Origin: Nitrospirota bacterium
GTDB taxonomy: Bacteria > Nitrospirota > Nitrospiria > Nitrospirales > UBA8639
Direction: 5' to 3'
Assembly: GCA_011088105.1 (NCBI GenBank)
Contig: JAALKI010000005.1
Location: 1 to 64,000, forward strand
DNA length: 64,000 nucleotides
Shown in pieces: positions 802 through 64,000 of this stretch (its first letter is position 1; each line of letters starts with the position of its first letter). The notes beneath the pieces are model-generated. The model was not told the origin of the DNA, did not search any database, and saw nothing but the letters and a program-made list of their open reading frames with translations. A program made the translations under genes and the position numbers.

Positions 802-951
802 CTTTTTATTTTCTGGACACGTCGAGGTCGATAAACTTGATGACAGTCGGTAAAAAATAGAGCGAGACTGTTGGCGCTCTTTTCTCTTGTTCTTTCCTTA
901 TTCTTTGAGTTTAATAGTATCGTTCAAGGTTCATATATCCGGCCTTAGAAT

Positions 952-1328
952 ATGATCATTCAGCTCAAGCGAGTGTATCACCCTCCTCATTCAGATGATG
1001 GCCGGCGGATTCTCGTCGATCGCCTATGGCCTCGCGGCCTCTCCAAAACAACGGCTTCCATTGATTACTGGGCAAAGGATGTCGCACCGTCAACAGAACT
1101 TCGTCATTGGTATGGGCATGACCAGGAAAAATGGATGGAGTTTCAGCAACGCTACATTGCGGAGCGGAGTTGCAAGCAATCCCGGAATGTGTCGAGGAGC
1201 TCTTGTTGTCTGTGCAAGAAAGTCCCGTCACGTTTGTCTATGCCTCACAAGAAGAGCGCTATAACAATGCGTGGGCTCTCAAGGAGTACATTGAATCCAA
1301 AGTGCGAGATGAGCAATTGGCGAAGTAA
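952..1328 (+). pseudogene. DUF488 family protein, frameshifted
   Basis: Small cytosolic protein of the DUF488 family, molecular function unknown. Residues 1-70 carry the family signatures [14 protein letters not shown] and [15 protein letters not shown] in one frame. The rest ([15 protein letters not shown] to the end at 1328) continues in another frame. At the junction CGGAG occurs twice in tandem (1160-1164 and 1165-1169). Removing one copy restores a continuous protein of about 124 residues, the usual family length. A 5-bp duplication is unlikely to be a simple base-calling error, so this is probably a real recent inactivation. A downstream start cannot rescue it, because the conserved N-terminal half would be lost. 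Confidence 0.8.
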
Positions 1329-54956: not shown

Positions 54957-56630
54957 TTAGGTTGTCACGGCTCCTTCGGAGGCTGAAGAGACCTGCCGGG
55001 CATATTTTGCCATGACGCCGCTGGTGTACCTGGGGGGAGGTGGTGACCAATTGGCCAAGCGTTTTTGTAATGCATCATCGGAAAGCGTCACGTTGAGCTG
55101 TCGGTTATTGATATCAAAGGTGATACGGTCGCCATGTTGAAGGGCGGCAATTGGACCGCCTTTGGCCGCTTCTGGGGCAACATGTCCCGCCATCAGTCCA
55201 TGGGTGGCTCCGGAGAATCGGCCATCAGTTAATAAGGCGACTGATTCACCTAAGCCTGCGCCAACAAGGGCTCCAGTGACTCCAAGCATTTCTCGCATGC
55301 CTGGTCCCCCTTGAGGTCCTTCGTATCTGATCACGATGACATCACCTTCCACAATGTCCCCATGTTGAACAGCAGCAAAGGCCTGTTCTTCACAATCGAA
55401 GACTTTGGCGGGTCCTTCATGGAATGTTCTTTCGTGTCCGGCAACTTTGAGTACACACCCGTCAGGGGCCACATTGCCTTTTAAAATGACAAGGCCACCG
55501 GTCGATTTGATAGGGTTTGATGCAGGGTGGAGTACTTGTTGCCCTGGAGTTTCAATTGCACTCGAGGCCTCTTCTTTAATCATTCGAGATGTCACGGTTG
55601 CACAATCACCATTAAGGAATCCGGCATCCAGTAAGCGCTTGGCGACAAGTCTGGTTCCGCCTGCCTGATACAAATCAGCTGCCACGAATTTGCCTCCTGG
55701 TTTGAGGTCGGCTAACAGAGGGGTTCGTCGATTGATAATATCAAAATCTTCGATGTCGAGTGGAATGCCAGCTTCACGCGCAATGGCGAGAAAATGCAAA
55801 ACTGAATTCGTCGATCCGCCAGTCGTGGCTACGGCAGCAATCGCGTTTTCTATGGACTTTCGTGTGACAATGTGTTTCGGGCGGAGATCCTGTCGGAGCA
55901 TGTCCATGACCAAGTGTCCGCATTGTGCCGCGACGATATCTTTTTCAGGATCCAAGGCTGGGACGCCGTTAAAGCCCATGGGCGACATCCCTAAAAATTC
56001 AAAGGCAATGGACATGGTGTTGGCTGTGAATTGTCCACCACAGGCTCCGGCTCCAGGACAGGCATGGTTTTCCAAATCATGGAGTGTGCTGTCATCCAGC
56101 TTGCCTTTGGCATGGGCACCGACGGCTTCGAAGACATCTTGAATGGTCACATCGTGCCCTTGAAAATGACCGGGCATAATTGAGCCACCATAGAGCATCA
56201 ATGATGGTAAGTTGAGGCGAATGAGGGCCATGACGGTTCCGGGAATGGTCTTATCGCATCCAGATAAGGCCACAACGGCATCGAGAAGATGGCCACGGGC
56301 GACAAGTTCAATAGAGTCAGCCACGACTTCTCGGCTAATAAGAGAGGTTTTCATTCCCTCTGTGCCCATACTAATGCCATCGGAAATGACAATGGTATTA
56401 AACTCAAGCGGTGTCCCTCCCGCTGCACGAATACCGGCTTTGACTTTTTCAGCGAGTTCTCGAAGATGAAAATTACACGGAGTAATTTCTGTCCAGGTAT
56501 TGGCGACACCAATCAACGGACGGGAAAGATCCTCATCGGTTAACCCAACGGCTTTTAACATGGCCCGAGCGGGTGCTCGGCCTGGGCCTTCTGTCAACTC
56601 GCGACTTTTGTGTTTCAAGTTCGTCGGCAT
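54957..56630 (-). CDS. ilvD: Dihydroxy-acid dehydratase
   Basis: Iron-sulfur dehydratase of branched-chain amino acid synthesis. It shows [44 protein letters not shown], the [18 protein letters not shown] cluster motif, and [15 protein letters not shown]. The length (about 557) is normal. ATG 56628-56630 has GGAGG seven bases upstream, better than the earlier in-frame start at 56645. Other ilv/leu genes are not nearby. Confidence 0.95.
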
Positions 56631-56804
56631 TCGTCTGTCCTCCACGTTATCGTAGAAATAGTGAGTAGATACAATTTTAGTTGCCTCATAAAGTGGCAGA
56701 AATGTCTCATAGAAAGGGTAAATCGGTCAAACAGAAAACATTCCAAAATATGCATGATTTTACTATACTAGCGTTGGTTGTCTTTATAAATCTCAAATCA
56801 GAGG

Positions 56805-57140: not shown

Positions 57141-57204
57141 TATTTCTCATATCCCCCTCTATTGCGGTCGAAGACAGAGCACCACGGTGCCCAGGACTCA
57201 GGTC

Positions 57205-57251
57205 AACTGCGCATGCAGTTGTAACAGAACGCACCCCGGCTTTAGCCGGGG
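57205..57251. terminator. Two hairpins between converging genes, likely bidirectional terminator
   Basis: AACTGC/GCAGTT (57205-57210/57215-57220, loop GCAT) is followed by CCCCGGC/GCCGGGG (57234-57240/57245-57251, loop TTTA). The second lies 5 bp past the end of the next - strand gene and is followed by T-rich DNA on +. It could stop both transcripts. The CTTTAGCC loop also resembles IS200/IS605-type ends, so a transposon scar is an alternative. Confidence 0.55.
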
Positions 57252-57255
57252 GAAT

Positions 57256-57732
57256 CTATTTTAAGTAAGGCTTCAATGTCTCATACGTTGTACGTATGGT
57301 TAGGCTATCCTGCTCCCACGCTTCAATAAATGGGGTAAAACGAGCTTTCTCGTACCCACCAGGAAACCAGGCACGCATCGCTAATTCGCCGGAGCTGGCC
57401 CAAAAGAAGCGAGCGACCGCCGCGCTGGTAGTCAGTGTATTGACGGCTGTAAGACGAGCCGCATCATTTTGATCAAGAGGCACTCCGGCAAAGACTGACT
57501 GGATGATCAGGCCGTCCAACAATTCGACAAGCACAAAACCAAACTTGGTTGGATGAGTCGCTTTGATCCCTTGATCGACTTTTTCAGATGTATATCCCAA
57601 AAACTCCAAATGTTCGATAATTTTATCCCGTGTGACCTGAGCCTCTGCGGTAGTAACTCCAAACATCACAAGCGAGAGGAGCATGAGGGAAAGAAAGGCT
57701 GGACATCGAGCTACAAGTTGGATGATAGGCAT
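57256..57732 (-). CDS. Exported YbjN-domain-like protein
   Basis: About 158 residues with a signal peptide (LSLMLLSLVMFGVTTAEA). The mature part has TRDKIIEHLEFLGYTSEKVDQ and VLVELLDGLIIQSVFAGVP, resembling the YbjN/CesT-like fold seen in small bacterial sensory or chaperone-type proteins. The start ATG is at 57730-57732; an earlier in-frame start at 57789 would place the signal peptide internally. Function is unknown. Confidence 0.6.
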   Translation of the reverse strand: MPIIQLVARCPAFLSLMLLSLVMFGVTTAEAQVTRDKIIEHLEFLGYTSEKVDQGIKATHPTKFGFVLVELLDGLIIQSVFAGVPLDQNDAARLTAVNTLTTSAAVARFFWASSGELAMRAWFPGGYEKARFTPFIEAWEQDSLTIRTTYETLKPYLK

Positions 57733-57842
57733 GTGCACTCTCCATGTTGCTGTTATGGGCTGTCTAAGCATTCCATCTATTACGTACAATTAGAATACGG
57801 CGGTGTTTTAAAGAGTATGGTAGGTGATTAAGTGAGGCTCAA

Positions 57843-58982
57843 TCATTTGGTTAGGTAGAGTGAGAGATCCTTGTCCATGTGATACATCTTCTGTCGTACG
57901 GCTGTCAGGCAGGTTGTTTTATTGGATTCCTGTAACCCCTCACAGACTTGGGATGCGCGTTTTTCATGAAATTTTGCCATTCGTTCCATGGCGCCTTCAA
58001 TACACATCATTTCTTCATCTTCTTGAAGTCCAAGACACACCTGTCGAAGCTGAACTTTTCCTGCAACGATCAAGGGCATGTGGGCGTTCCCTAGTCCATG
58101 GAAGCAACCAAGACGGAACGGATGAGCGAGAGTGGCACACTGCTTCTTGAGTGACGCCAGAGGCCGTCTCGCTTCATAATGTCTCCGAACCACGTGAACC
58201 ATTTTATAGCGTGCACAGGCGGCTGAGTAATCATATCGATCACATGGATAAAATGTTTCCTTAATCTTTGCGTCTGTTGGATCGTTTTCCGTCACATATT
58301 CCATGTATACGCCAGTCGCACAATAATAGATCATGCTCGATTTCTCAAATTCTGTGCAAGTCTCAAGCGCTTCGGGAATTTGATAGTTTGTAAGAAACAT
58401 GAGTGCATGCCCAACGCCATGGGCACAGTCTCCTGGAGAATAGGAGGCGGTCATCACCGGATTTTGGAAACACAGATCGTTGATGACTGGATGAAGCGCA
58501 CGTTTGTTGAGGCCTTGACCATTCGTCTGGCCTATGGTGGCAAAGGCTTCCATCAGGATCCCATGCATGCATCCTGAGTGGCAGCGATCTTCACAAATGC
58601 GGAGTCCTCTGCTGATGTCATGGACATGGCTAAAGATGACTTTACCAAGATCATGAGCTTCTGAATGACAACGAGGCCAGAGAGTTTCGATAGAATCCAA
58701 GATCCCATTGGCTCCAATAACTAGAATATAATGCTCAAATAAATGACGTTTCTGGTTGCCAACGGCCTTGAGAGCGTGATGAAATTTCCTCCGTTGTTCT
58801 ATAACTGTCTGGGGTTCGATAAAGAGAGGTGAGGAGAACGAAGAACTTGGAGTCGTGACGCCAATACCTTGTCTATGTTGGCTGTCCCGAAATGTTCCGT
58901 GGCATGAAGAAGAAAAAAAGCAACGAGAAGTGAGATGAGGAAGTACCGAGCGTTGGTACATAGGGAATAATGAGGCATACAC
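57843..58982 (-). CDS. Cys/His-rich protein with repeated CxHG-type motifs, N-terminus probably frameshifted
   Basis: No family is recognised. The mature part (about 300 residues) holds recurrent Cys-His-Gly motifs: RCHSEAHDLGK, CEDRCHSGCMHG, CAHGVGHAL, YYCATGV, CFHGLGNAH, plus further Cys pairs. This pattern suggests metal or disulfide binding. In the coded frame the first 50 residues are not signal-like. The neighbouring frame from ATG 58978 reads a good signal peptide (YFLISLLVAFFLL) up to an A7 run (58913-58919, + strand). One extra base in that run would join the two. It is next to FecR, same strand. Confidence 0.65.
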   Translation of the reverse strand: MYASLFPMYQRSVLPHLTSRCFFSSSCHGTFRDSQHRQGIGVTTPSSSFSSPLFIEPQTVIEQRRKFHHALKAVGNQKRHLFEHYILVIGANGILDSIETLWPRCHSEAHDLGKVIFSHVHDISRGLRICEDRCHSGCMHGILMEAFATIGQTNGQGLNKRALHPVINDLCFQNPVMTASYSPGDCAHGVGHALMFLTNYQIPEALETCTEFEKSSMIYYCATGVYMEYVTENDPTDAKIKETFYPCDRYDYSAACARYKMVHVVRRHYEARRPLASLKKQCATLAHPFRLGCFHGLGNAHMPLIVAGKVQLRQVCLGLQEDEEMMCIEGAMERMAKFHEKRASQVCEGLQESNKTTCLTAVRQKMYHMDKDLSLYLTK

Positions 58983-59008
58983 TGAAAGGGTACGTGCTGG
59001 CTATGGAT

Positions 59009-60033
59009 CTAGGGGGAACTAAGATTAACTGTATTGCCGACTCCATCAACAACAAGAAGGGCTTCTTGGTTGGGGTCAAAGTTAACCGTGTTGCCTGAAC
59101 TTCCTGGAAAAGGATCATACGATGGTGAGATATTAATCGCATTATTGGTGGGAGTGGCTCCGTTTGCGAAAAAAATTGTGACGTCTTGACCAAACGTTGT
59201 GCAATCATCTCTTGGGCACCTGGAGGGGTGATGAGATGTTGAGGCTCAAGCTGAATATCTTGGGTCCGACACGAGACGGGCGAGGCGGCGGTTGGTTGTC
59301 CAATGGTTCCGCCCGTGACCTGAACCATCTGGCCGGCTTCCACCGTCACCGGGGCGAGCCCCGGTATTTGTGAAATCACTTCCACACTGCCTTCCACGAC
59401 GTGGATGGTTTCTTGTCCCGGACTTGTTGGGCCAAGAGCTTGAACCCGCAACGATTTCGCGGAAGACGGTGAACCAGGAAATGCTGTGAGGACTGGTCGG
59501 GCCTGGGGCTGACGGTTGGTTGGCTTGGCCTGCTCCGAACCGGGCGCCACCTGAATCTGTAGCAGCGTGTTGGGTTGCGCAATGATGGTCGTGGTGGGAG
59601 TGCGCATGGTTACCGGCGCGTTCGTCTGATTCCCTTTTGCTTGACATGCGATGCACGTTCGTCCACTGAGGAGGTTGACGACTTGTGGCAGGTCTGGCTC
59701 TTCCGTGATCATGACCTCTGACGACTCCTGAAGAGTGACTAAGGCCGCATCCCCGACGAGCATGCCGAGCATGGCTTGGGCTCCCGTGCGAATACGGTCT
59801 CCATAGACCACAGGGCCCTTGAACACGGCACGATCAACCTGCTGTGGGCGATCGGCTCGCACGATCGTCGCCTCCCCGTTGACGCTGGAGACTAGCCCGA
59901 CCGAACCGCCGTCCGGTTGCGAACGAGATTGAGCGAGCCCGGTCATGGGGACTGTGGCAACGAATAGCCCTTGCATGATGCCTATCATCAGGAACAAGAG
60001 CATCCGAAGCGAGAAGGTGTGCGCGGTGATCAT
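59009..60033 (-). pseudogene. FecR-domain exported protein, frameshifted near its C-terminus
   Basis: A signal peptide (LLFLMIGIMQGLFVATVPMTGLA) is followed by a FecR-type domain (ATIVRADRPQQVDRAVFKGPVVYGDRIRTGAQAMLGM, LLSGRTCIAC), a Pro/Ala/Gln-rich linker and a second beta segment (VVEGSVEVISQIPGLAPVTVEAGQMVQVT). Past an A7 run (59169-59175, + strand) the reading frame becomes nonsense, while the shifted frame gives FFANGATPTNNAINISPSY to a stop at 59009. One extra base repairs it. Unshifted, it would read into the next gene and end at 58873. Confidence 0.75.
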
Positions 60034-60215
60034 GAATAATAGATGAATCTTGGTAATGGAAACGCTTCCCCGGGATCAAACGTGCATTCGTTCATTAACC
60101 TGTTGATAATTCTTGGCTTTTTTAGTAGTTTTGTCAAGTCGTTTTAATTCTTTTCGAATCATAATCCCTATATTCGGAGAGGAGAAGAAGGGCCGAGGAA
60201 AGAAAGGTCAGAGTC
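60034..60215. promoter_or_regulatory. Divergent intergenic region of the FecR and TPR-barrel genes
   Basis: 182 bp separates two divergently read genes, so promoters for both must lie here. No consensus was clear. An AT-rich stretch is at about 60100-60160, and GGAGAGGAGAAG precedes the + strand gene at a distance. Confidence 0.35.
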
Positions 60216-61848
60216 ATGACCCATACGAAGGGACACTCGGTGATTCGAGCTATTGCGATTCTTCTCGTTGTCTTTCTGCTCTTCCCCCCCTGGCTTGTCG
60301 CTGTGTCGGCGCAACAAGCCGAAGCCGAAATCCTCTTGGCTCAAGCCACGGTGGCGTATGAAGAGGCGCGCTATGAGAAGGCGCGGGCGCTGCTTGAACG
60401 GGCCAAGACGTTAGATCCGCAGAATGCGCGAGTGTTCTACTATGCCGGACTGACCTTGCTGGCACTCAAGCAACCAGCGCTGGCTGTTGCCCAGCTCACG
60501 ATTGCGCACGAACTTCGTCCGAACGATCTCTTTATTCGGTTTCAGTTAGGCGTGGCCTATTTCGCTTTAGAATCCTACGACCGGGCGGCCCCGTTGCTCT
60601 TTGAGGTCTTTGATGAACAGCCCCAATTAGATGGTCTTGGATTTTATGTAGGTTTTTTGCGGTATCGAGCCAAGGCGTATGATGCGGCCCTCAAGGCATT
60701 TGACGTAGGCCAAACCGCCGATACTGAGATGCAACAACTGACCCGTTTCTATCGAGGGTTGACACTGGGGGTGCTGGGACTGCCTGACCAAGCGCTTGTC
60801 GAATTAGAGGAGATTCTCAAAAGTGAGGCGGTGTCACCCGTGACGTCAGGGGCGATCCGCCTTCGAGATACTCTGAGCGCTGGGCGAGTGAAACAAGAAG
60901 AGGCCAAACGGTTTCATTTCCAGGTGAGCCTTGGTGGGGTCTATGATGACAATGTGGCGGTAAACCCGGATTCAAGTAATAATTCACTGGCGAGGCAACT
61001 TCGGGAGCGATCGACGAATTCTCCAGGTTTGCTGGCTTCGATGCTGGCGGAATATGCGTGGTTGCGTCAGGGCCCGTGGGAATCACGGGTTCGGTATTCC
61101 TTTTTTCAGACACTCAATACGGAAGGCAATCTTTCTCGGTTTAATATTCAGGACCACCTTGGAGGGATCAATGGATTTTATCGAGGCGTTGTTGCCCAGT
61201 TACCCTATCAACTGGCCCTGGATTACACGTTTGATTACCTGTTCTTAGATCAGGCTGCCTTTCTCACCCGACATACGCCCACCGCTTCCGTAACGGTTGT
61301 GCCCCCAGCCTTCAAGGTTCCCGTGCTTGGTGACGTGGGCAATCTCACCAGCGTGCTGGTCCGGTATCAAGTGAAGGAGTTCTTACGGGAAGTTGGTGAT
61401 GATGACCCACGGTTTCAATCTGACATTCGCGATGCGTTGAATATCATGACGGGGGTCACGCACGCGTTTCGTTTTGCGCAAGACCAGCACTTGGTCCGGA
61501 TCGGCTATCAGTACGATAACGAAAATGCGGAAGGCACCAACTTTGTCTTATTTTGGTCACCGTTTACTCACCGGTGGTCAAGTGACGTTGCCATGGGGGG
61601 GTATCCGGGTACGGTACGACTACGATGTTCATTGGCGTGATTACAGTGATGCACGCAACAGGACGGCTTTGGTTAGCGGGCCCTTTCGTGAGGATACGCA
61701 ACAGACCCACCTGGTGCGAGTCGAAAAACCGTTTCCGTATGATGTCACCCTGACGACCCAATATCAGCGTATTCTCAATGATTCCAATTTGGCTGTCTTC
61801 GATTACACGAAAAATGTGTTCTCGGTTATTCTGACGTGGACCTATTAG
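60216..61848 (+). pseudogene. TPR / outer-membrane beta-barrel protein, frameshifted
   Basis: A signal peptide (AIAILLVVFLLFPPWLVAVSAQQ) precedes TPR-like repeats (about residues 30-220: YEEARYEKARALLERAKTLDPQNARVFYYAG). Then comes a region typical of an outer-membrane barrel, with alternating aromatic strands (FQVSLGGVYDDNVAVNPD, ESRVRYSFFQTL). At a G7 run (61590-61596) the frame ends early at 61640. In the next frame IRVRYDYDVHWRDYSDARN...FSVILTWTY continues to 61848 and ends in an aromatic, as barrels do. Six G would restore one protein of about 540 residues. Surface exposure is likely; a SLAM-like role is possible. Confidence 0.75.
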
Positions 61849-61907
61849 CCAGCCGCCGTCGGTGTTTAGCTATCGATCTATGGGTACATCACGAATCGAT
61901 AGTTCGG

Positions 61908-64000
61908 TTATTCCGTGACTGCTACGGGAAAGTCCTGAATGGTTTGGGGCTTCGTGGTGGTAGGTGTTTGTTGCCCTTTGGTCAAGGCCTTCACACGCTC
62001 CGAGAGATAGAGGTCTAGCATGTTGATGGTAACCGTGCCTGTTCCGCGATAGTCTGCTCCCCCCGTCAGTCCTTCCACGAGAGCTTTGGTAAAGGCGCCA
62101 TTTCCCCATGTTGGATCTTCGAGTGCATACTGTCGCCCTGTCGATGAGGCAAACACGACAGCCCCGTTTTCAGCACTGCTGAGTTCGTTGACCAGCGCAT
62201 TGATATCCGCAACACCCCGTCGCACACCCATAATATTTCCCGCATGACAGGTATCCACAAACAAGAGTGTTTTGCCGGAAAGTGCGGCGACCGTGTTTTT
62301 GATGTCAGAAAAGGGCAGACTTGTTCGTCGCAAGCGGTCAGTGTCGGCGTTTACAGTTAGAAAGTAGTAAATCCCTCCTTTATCATTCACGCCATGTCCA
62401 GCAAAAAAGAGGATGGCGACATCTTTGCTTGTTGTCTCGCGATCAATCCAATCCAATCCATCCAGGATGTTTCCTTTTGTTGCTTGGGCATCGATCAGGG
62501 TTTTGGCTACGACTTCACGGTAGAGTCCTCCAGCTTGATGCTGAAGCGCTTTTGCAAATGCCTGTGCGTCTTGCCCTGGAAAACAAAGGGACAATGCCGG
62601 ATCGTTGTATTGACTCATGCCGACGGCTAGGACATAGAGTTTTGGTTTGATGGGGAAAGCCTCATGCTTGCGCCAACGTAGATGCACAGTGGCCGGATGG
62701 CTTTTCCCCCAGCGATGCTGGGCGACAAGAGAGATTTCACAGTCCCGTTTTGGGATCTGTACATGGAGTTCGTGTACAAGCCGGCCAGTTGAGACTTTGC
62801 CTGCCACACGGAGTCCGCGTGGTGTTGGTGCCGAACGACCATCGACCAGCACTGTGACTTCTGCCTTCGGTACTCCGGGCGGGGTGATCACCATATATCG
62901 GACTGTGATATCTGGTGATGAAACCATTTCTCCTTCAGGAGGTGAAAGAATTGTTACGATGGGAGAAATTTGTTTGAATGCTTGCTCTGTTATTTCCATT
63001 AGATGCTGAAGGCTTCTGTATAGCCCTACCTGGTTGGGTGGGAAATCTTGCTGGATGGTCAACTGATATGGTGGATAACTGGTGTCGCTCGACTTTTAGT
63101 CGTTCCTGCTCAGCTTTCAGAATTTCTTGTTGTTTGCGTTTCAATTCTTCCTGGCCAGCTCGTTGCTGGGGTTGTTCGATTTCCTTTGTGAGTGCCTCAA
63201 TCCGCTGCTGCATTTGTTCTTCCATACGACGCAATCCCGTCATCAGATGCTTCCGTTCTTTCTCAATGCGCTCGTGCTTTTCAGTCTTTGGAGGAATTTG
63301 ATTCGGATTGTACGTGATGACCTGCGCTTTTTGCCGTGCTTCTTCGTTAGCAAGACGAATTGCCTGTTGTTCATCCCAACTTTCAGTGAGTTTGGCGATG
63401 ACGTCTGGTCGATAAGAAACGGTCCGGAATTGCGCAATTGGGAAAAAATCGGCTGCTGTGTCCGGCCCGTAATTTTTATGCCATCCGATGAAATTATCGG
63501 CTCCTGGAGCAGCATCGTAATAGCCAGATGGTGTCCAGAGAACCCAACGGCGCTGGTCGGGATGGGGGAAGAGCGCGAGTATCTCTTGGCCATCGGTCAT
63601 TCGATACCATCGAATGGTGCCATCGCCTAGTGTGACCACGGCCACACGACCGTCTTGTGCAACATTGATCGACCAAGCATCACCTGAAATGGGCGTTGCC
63701 CACAGTTCCTGTCTGTATTGGTCAAAGAGGCGAAGAGACCATGCTGTTCCCACCAGAATAGCCTGATGATCCGGCGTTATGGCAAAGCCCCGAGCGATTT
63801 CGCCTCGATCCAAAGGAATTGCATGGCCGTTGAGCGTTGGTGGAGACGTTGCTGTTGAGACTTGGGGTGTTGACCAGCCCTGTACGGTAAGTGTTGAGGA
63901 AGTGGTGATTGGAGGAATCAGGGAATGTACAAGGCCTGCTGATTCAAGCAAGCGGCTCGTGATTGAAAAAGTAGTCGGCTGCTTACCCCATTGTTGAGAA
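61908..64000 (-). pseudogene. WD40-caspase (peptidase C14) protein, frameshifted and partial
   Basis: One gene in two frames. The 5' part (64000 to about 62940) runs in from beyond the window edge and holds the last WD40-type repeat(s) (IRWYRMTDGQEIL, DQRRWVLWTPSGYYDAAPG), a conserved GWHKNYG...FRTVSYRPD block and a Lys/Glu/Gln coiled coil. The 3' part (from about 63062) holds an Ig-like segment and a caspase domain with His in LFFAGHGVND and Cys in FVDTCHAG. The frame changes between about 62940 and 63090. The joined order WD40-linker-caspase is a known bacterial arrangement. No signal peptide is seen in the visible part. Confidence 0.8.

Follow-up and report, generated by a model that had tools for sequence, protein, structure and literature searches.

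Frameshift pseudogenes of bacterial genomes, indel errors in draft assemblies and phase-variable genes with simple repeats are the described systems that most resemble the locus reported here. Frameshift pseudogenes are similar in that single-base indels interrupt recognizable accessory genes whose homologues are intact in relatives. However, the four examples described below lie in adjacent genes that carry no other damage, and are thus either very recent or not real. Long-read drafts are also known to contain frame-breaking indels, both in homopolymers and at other sites (PMC12007338), and errors arising from long reads or thin coverage share with our locus single-base indels of both signs in otherwise conserved sequence. 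In contrast to such drafts, the genome studied here has no general homopolymer bias, and its background breaks spare clearly essential genes. The likeness to simple-repeat phase-variable genes is that two of the breaks fall at homopolymers in genes for exported proteins, but the runs here are short, common and unconserved, two breaks have no run, and one state is known.

The window, that is, the whole stretch of DNA that was analyzed, consists of the first 64,000 bases of a contig (C56) of 100,415 bases, within a draft genome of 70 contigs and 2.6 Mb that is 97.6% complete. The host is an uncultured, novel-genus member of the Nitrospira family. It is the sole member of its genus among the genomes compared, and the nearest named relatives of the window gene at 54957-56645 are Nitrospira metagenome-assembled genomes (MAGs; 74-76% identity).

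Four adjacent genes, with frame changes between 58.9 and 63.1 kb, constitute an envelope module that encodes a Cys/His protein, a FecR protein, a TPR-barrel protein and a WD40-caspase. A sequence-only reading had proposed that each of them changes frame, and one change per gene is indeed present in the given sequence, where homologues support three of the changes and a displaced signal peptide supports the fourth. The relevant features are as follows.

57843-58982, minus strand: gene for a Cys/His-rich exported protein, with the mature part in the frame of the open reading frame 57843-58982 and a signal-peptide-like start in another frame.
58913-58919, minus strand: T7 run (sense), apparent -1 type frame change of the Cys/His gene, as suggested by the displaced signal peptide.
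59010-60033, minus strand: gene for a FecR-domain protein (Pfam FecR, 21.7 bits, below the cut-off), broken near its end, with a tail in the other frame that is homologous to intact relatives.
59169-59175, minus strand: T7 run (sense), at or near the FecR frame change, -1 type (frame analysis and relatives).
60216-61848, plus strand: gene for a TPR (by Pfam) and outer-membrane-barrel-like protein with one break, 47-59% identical to relatives on both sides of it.
61531-61547, plus strand: stretch holding the barrel-gene frame change, +1 type, without a run of seven (alignment to eight relatives).
61595-61601, plus strand: G7 run, which falls within the conserved new frame and is not where the frame changes (alignment to relatives).
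61908-64000, minus strand: WD40-caspase gene (Peptidase_C14, 55 bits), starting beyond the window at L041:1202, with WD40 and caspase parts in different frames here and in a single frame in relatives.
62935-63095, minus strand: stretch holding the WD40-caspase frame change, +1 type, without a run of seven (frame analysis and model).

Our preferred interpretation, to which we assign a probability of about 0.48, is that these four breaks are independent lesions that record a recent loss of function of an accessory envelope module in this lineage. All four lesions are single-base indels, of -1 type in the Cys/His and FecR genes and +1 type in the barrel and WD40-caspase genes, and no one sequence mechanism covers them all. 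Three of the breaks had been assigned to seven-base homopolymers; this applies only to two, at 58913-58919 and 59169-59175, as no such run occurs at the break of the barrel gene or of the caspase gene. The frame is interrupted relative to intact homologues in the FecR, barrel and WD40-caspase genes, and relative to the signal peptide alone in the Cys/His gene.

The barrel gene is in one frame in each of eight relatives. When aligned with these, the old frame matches as far as ...NENAEGTNF, and from SYFGHRLLTGGQ onwards it is the new frame that matches, which places the break at 61531-61547. The G7 run previously proposed as the site, at 61590-61596, is really at 61595-61601, about 50 bases past the break and within the conserved new frame, and we therefore rejected it.

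The frame swap in the WD40-caspase gene, predicted earlier at about 62940-63090, is bracketed to 62935-63095 with a model optimum at 63087. At three loci in two relatives, the WD40 and caspase halves are in one frame of 1406-1427 amino acids. A natural fission into two genes would also separate the halves, but we consider a broken single gene likelier, because there is an overlap of 128 bases between the frames and the modelled switch at 63087 precedes any start codon that the caspase frame has of its own. The gene here (61908-64000 plus L041:1-1202) encodes a single caspase domain plus a coiled-coil-like linker. Its homologues in genomes G066 and G067 have two tandem caspase domains, and in the first of these, residues surrounding the catalytic cysteine motif are altered.

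Intact FecR genes of G066 and G067 have ends that match the other-frame C-terminal tail of the FecR protein (TNNAINISPSYDPFPGSSGNTVNFDPNQEALLVVDGVGNTVNL) with 44-49% identity, and this tail terminates just short of the next gene. The A7 run suggested as the FecR break is present and the frame changes around it, but the exact site is only bracketed to the surrounding stretch. At the two nearest syntenic loci, the T7 run is absent from FecR. In G066 (contig C168, L129:4506-12875), the FecR domain heads an open frame of 2790 amino acids that adjoins the barrel gene. In G067, a large DUF7948/PASTA/beta-propeller protein follows FecR (L131:12990-17996), and its counterpart in G066 (contig C84, L130:2316-3092) is fragmented in appearance.

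In the Cys/His gene, an ATG-initiated, signal-peptide-like frame (MPHYSLCTNARYFLISLLVAFF...) enters the A7 run at 58913-58919 (T7 in the sense orientation), and the mature protein is in another frame. Remote relatives of the protein have a hydrophobic N-terminal segment. The run is thus a plausible site for the break, as had been suggested, and the signal peptide is still what points to it.

Under the slippery-site rule, the Cys/His run is in phase as U_UUU_UUU for a -1 shift, which is the type of change at this site. Programmed ribosomal frameshifting or transcriptional slippage could accordingly restore the products. However, the codon phase in FecR is a poorer fit, the FecR genes of relatives are in one frame and have no such run, and the barrel and caspase breaks are +1 changes that lack a slippery run. 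An in-phase slippery heptamer was found only in the Cys/His gene, and in FecR it is not conserved in orthologues. We regard recoding of this sort as exceedingly unlikely.

The same two T7 runs, located in genes for exported proteins, are what speaks for phase variation by slippage in a surface or periplasmic system, one of the options raised earlier. The window has 28 A7/T7 runs versus 21 +/- 6 expected, and therefore such runs occur at chance frequency. They are also short. Two of the four sites have no run of seven, let alone an unusually long repeat tract, and the nearest syntenic relatives have no such run in FecR. Moreover, mutS (an 888-amino acid frame) and mutL (a 606-amino acid frame) are present and open, and we see no sign of a mutator that has lost mismatch repair. 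Phase variation consequently fares poorly as an account of the locus, and we judge it very improbable. A narrower form, in which slippage at the Cys/His and FecR runs switches these two neighboring exported proteins together, and the breaks in the barrel and caspase genes arose later, in a lineage already "off", is slimmer still. For the two T7 sites alone, phase variation and recoding retain a low probability. Most likely, the breaks reflect either gene decay of an ordinary, recent kind or a flaw in the local sequence determination, and not a genetic switch.

To establish the background rate of frame changes, a phase-aware Markov model was trained on the genome and used to seek frame jumps in 1.75 Mb, sampled in stretches and including 1.44 Mb of coding sequence. 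Sensitivity was roughly nine tenths (32 of 36 simulated single-base indels in genes were recovered). Raw calls were mostly ordinary gene junctions or overlaps, and were sorted by the position of the stop in the upstream frame and by reading translations. About 15 likely frame changes remained outside the cluster in the 1.75 Mb. For the DUF488, DnaJ_C, glutamate synthase and BCCT genes, the two halves align to successive portions of a single Pfam profile; the remaining breaks were assessed by eye and may include a few errors. The DUF488 gene (949-1325, plus strand) is within the first 57 kb of the window, which had been considered intact; it changes frame near 1161, its halves fitting consecutive profile parts, and no long run is present at that break.

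With these numbers, 4 of 19 breaks fall within 4.2 kb (P about 3e-4), and this clustering exceeds the genome background. For model-called breaks alone, the corresponding figures are 3 of 18 and P about 0.014. Genes with background breaks are accessory, transport or mobile, and include a transposase, a phage terminase-like gene, DUF488, a T6SS sheath gene and a BCCT transporter. None of the breaks seen in the sampled 1.75 Mb is in a clearly essential gene, as judged by reading, which is as expected of natural pseudogenes. By eye, at least two apparent in-frame stops also occur elsewhere in the host genome, in a secretion/pilus ATPase-like gene (L056:2259) and a cation P-type ATPase-like gene (L162:15235). 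A large RHS/SpvB-like gene (L194:4496-10193) has an apparent frame change, and its pieces were searched separately.

The sampled coding sequence has 379 runs of at least seven bases, yet no such run is present at any of the nine background breaks that were inspected. Among inspected sites, only 2 of these 379 runs coincide with a break, and a genome-wide homopolymer error was therefore rejected. The idea of homopolymer errors near a contig end also does not hold, because contig C56 continues for 36 kb past the end of the window, which makes the region mid-contig, and because half of the four breaks are off long runs.

A different kind of error is a serious competitor, and we consider it quite conceivable. 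A local patch of mixed consensus errors, resulting from low depth or too few error-prone reads, might have produced the four indels in genes that are intact in the organism. Such a patch would account for single-base indels alone, of both signs and without in-frame stops, for four of them in 4.2 kb, far over background, and for conservation past each break that equals that before it. However, the region is mid-contig, the background breaks avoid both clearly essential genes and long runs, and the patch would need to coincide with one module.

Under recent decay, one module gene would have failed first, and its linked neighbors, then freed from selection, would each have taken a lesion of their own, two of them probably via slippage at T runs and the other two at unrelated positions. 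We infer both the presence of the lesions in the organism and the sequence of events in which one loss brought on the rest. A module that is broken, has a patchy distribution and sits between open flanks is compatible with decay, although this is short of proof. The flanking genes at 57256-57789 and L041:1497-2513 are open. FecR matches occur in 14 of the 49 genomes of the family that were compared, and strong matches to the WD40 part in just two other genomes. In G066 and G067, the FecR, barrel and WD40-caspase genes are close together, each in a single frame.

Decay must, however, be very recent, because the codon signal and conservation are undiminished past the breaks. Sequence 3' of the breaks remains conserved relative to relatives, and the FecR, barrel and WD40-caspase segments score between the 43rd and 100th percentiles of intact genes, that is, at or above the middle. 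The Cys/His codon score is lower (0.023, versus a mean of 0.039 and standard deviation of 0.022). Further signs of relaxed selection were not found in the four genes: the codon signal is not weakened, and there are no in-frame stops in the 5,750 coding bases checked. Mutation-accumulation counts in Vibrio give about 17 substitutions per single-base indel (PMC5854121), and 3.65% of substitutions in the four genes would create a stop. At the Vibrio ratio, about 2.6 in-frame stops should have arisen, against zero observed (P about 0.08), which counts against decay. Overall, decay and local consensus error are about equally likely. Decay is slightly ahead, mainly because clearly essential genes, as judged by reading, have no breaks.

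The finding is ordinary, and no new mechanism is needed. Our result is mainly a caution, in that automatic annotation will split or truncate four envelope-module genes of this genome, and what looked like a homopolymer pattern disappears when the breaks are positioned with the help of homologues. Provided that the lesions are real, a Nitrospira relative has here lost a FecR/TPR-barrel/caspase module.

Two other candidate explanations for the region were rejected. A foreign island is not indicated by composition, given that GC content is 0.46-0.57 without a sharp boundary. If a duplicated locus had collapsed, a further DNA copy might be expected, but none was found, and only weak TPR matches occur elsewhere. 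The intergenic stretch at 57177-57265 contains a perfect hairpin (CCCCGGCTTTAGCCGGGG). This stretch is single-copy in its own genome but has matches in G007 (91% identity over 89 bases) and G001 (85% over 66 bases), and is perhaps the end of a mobile element.
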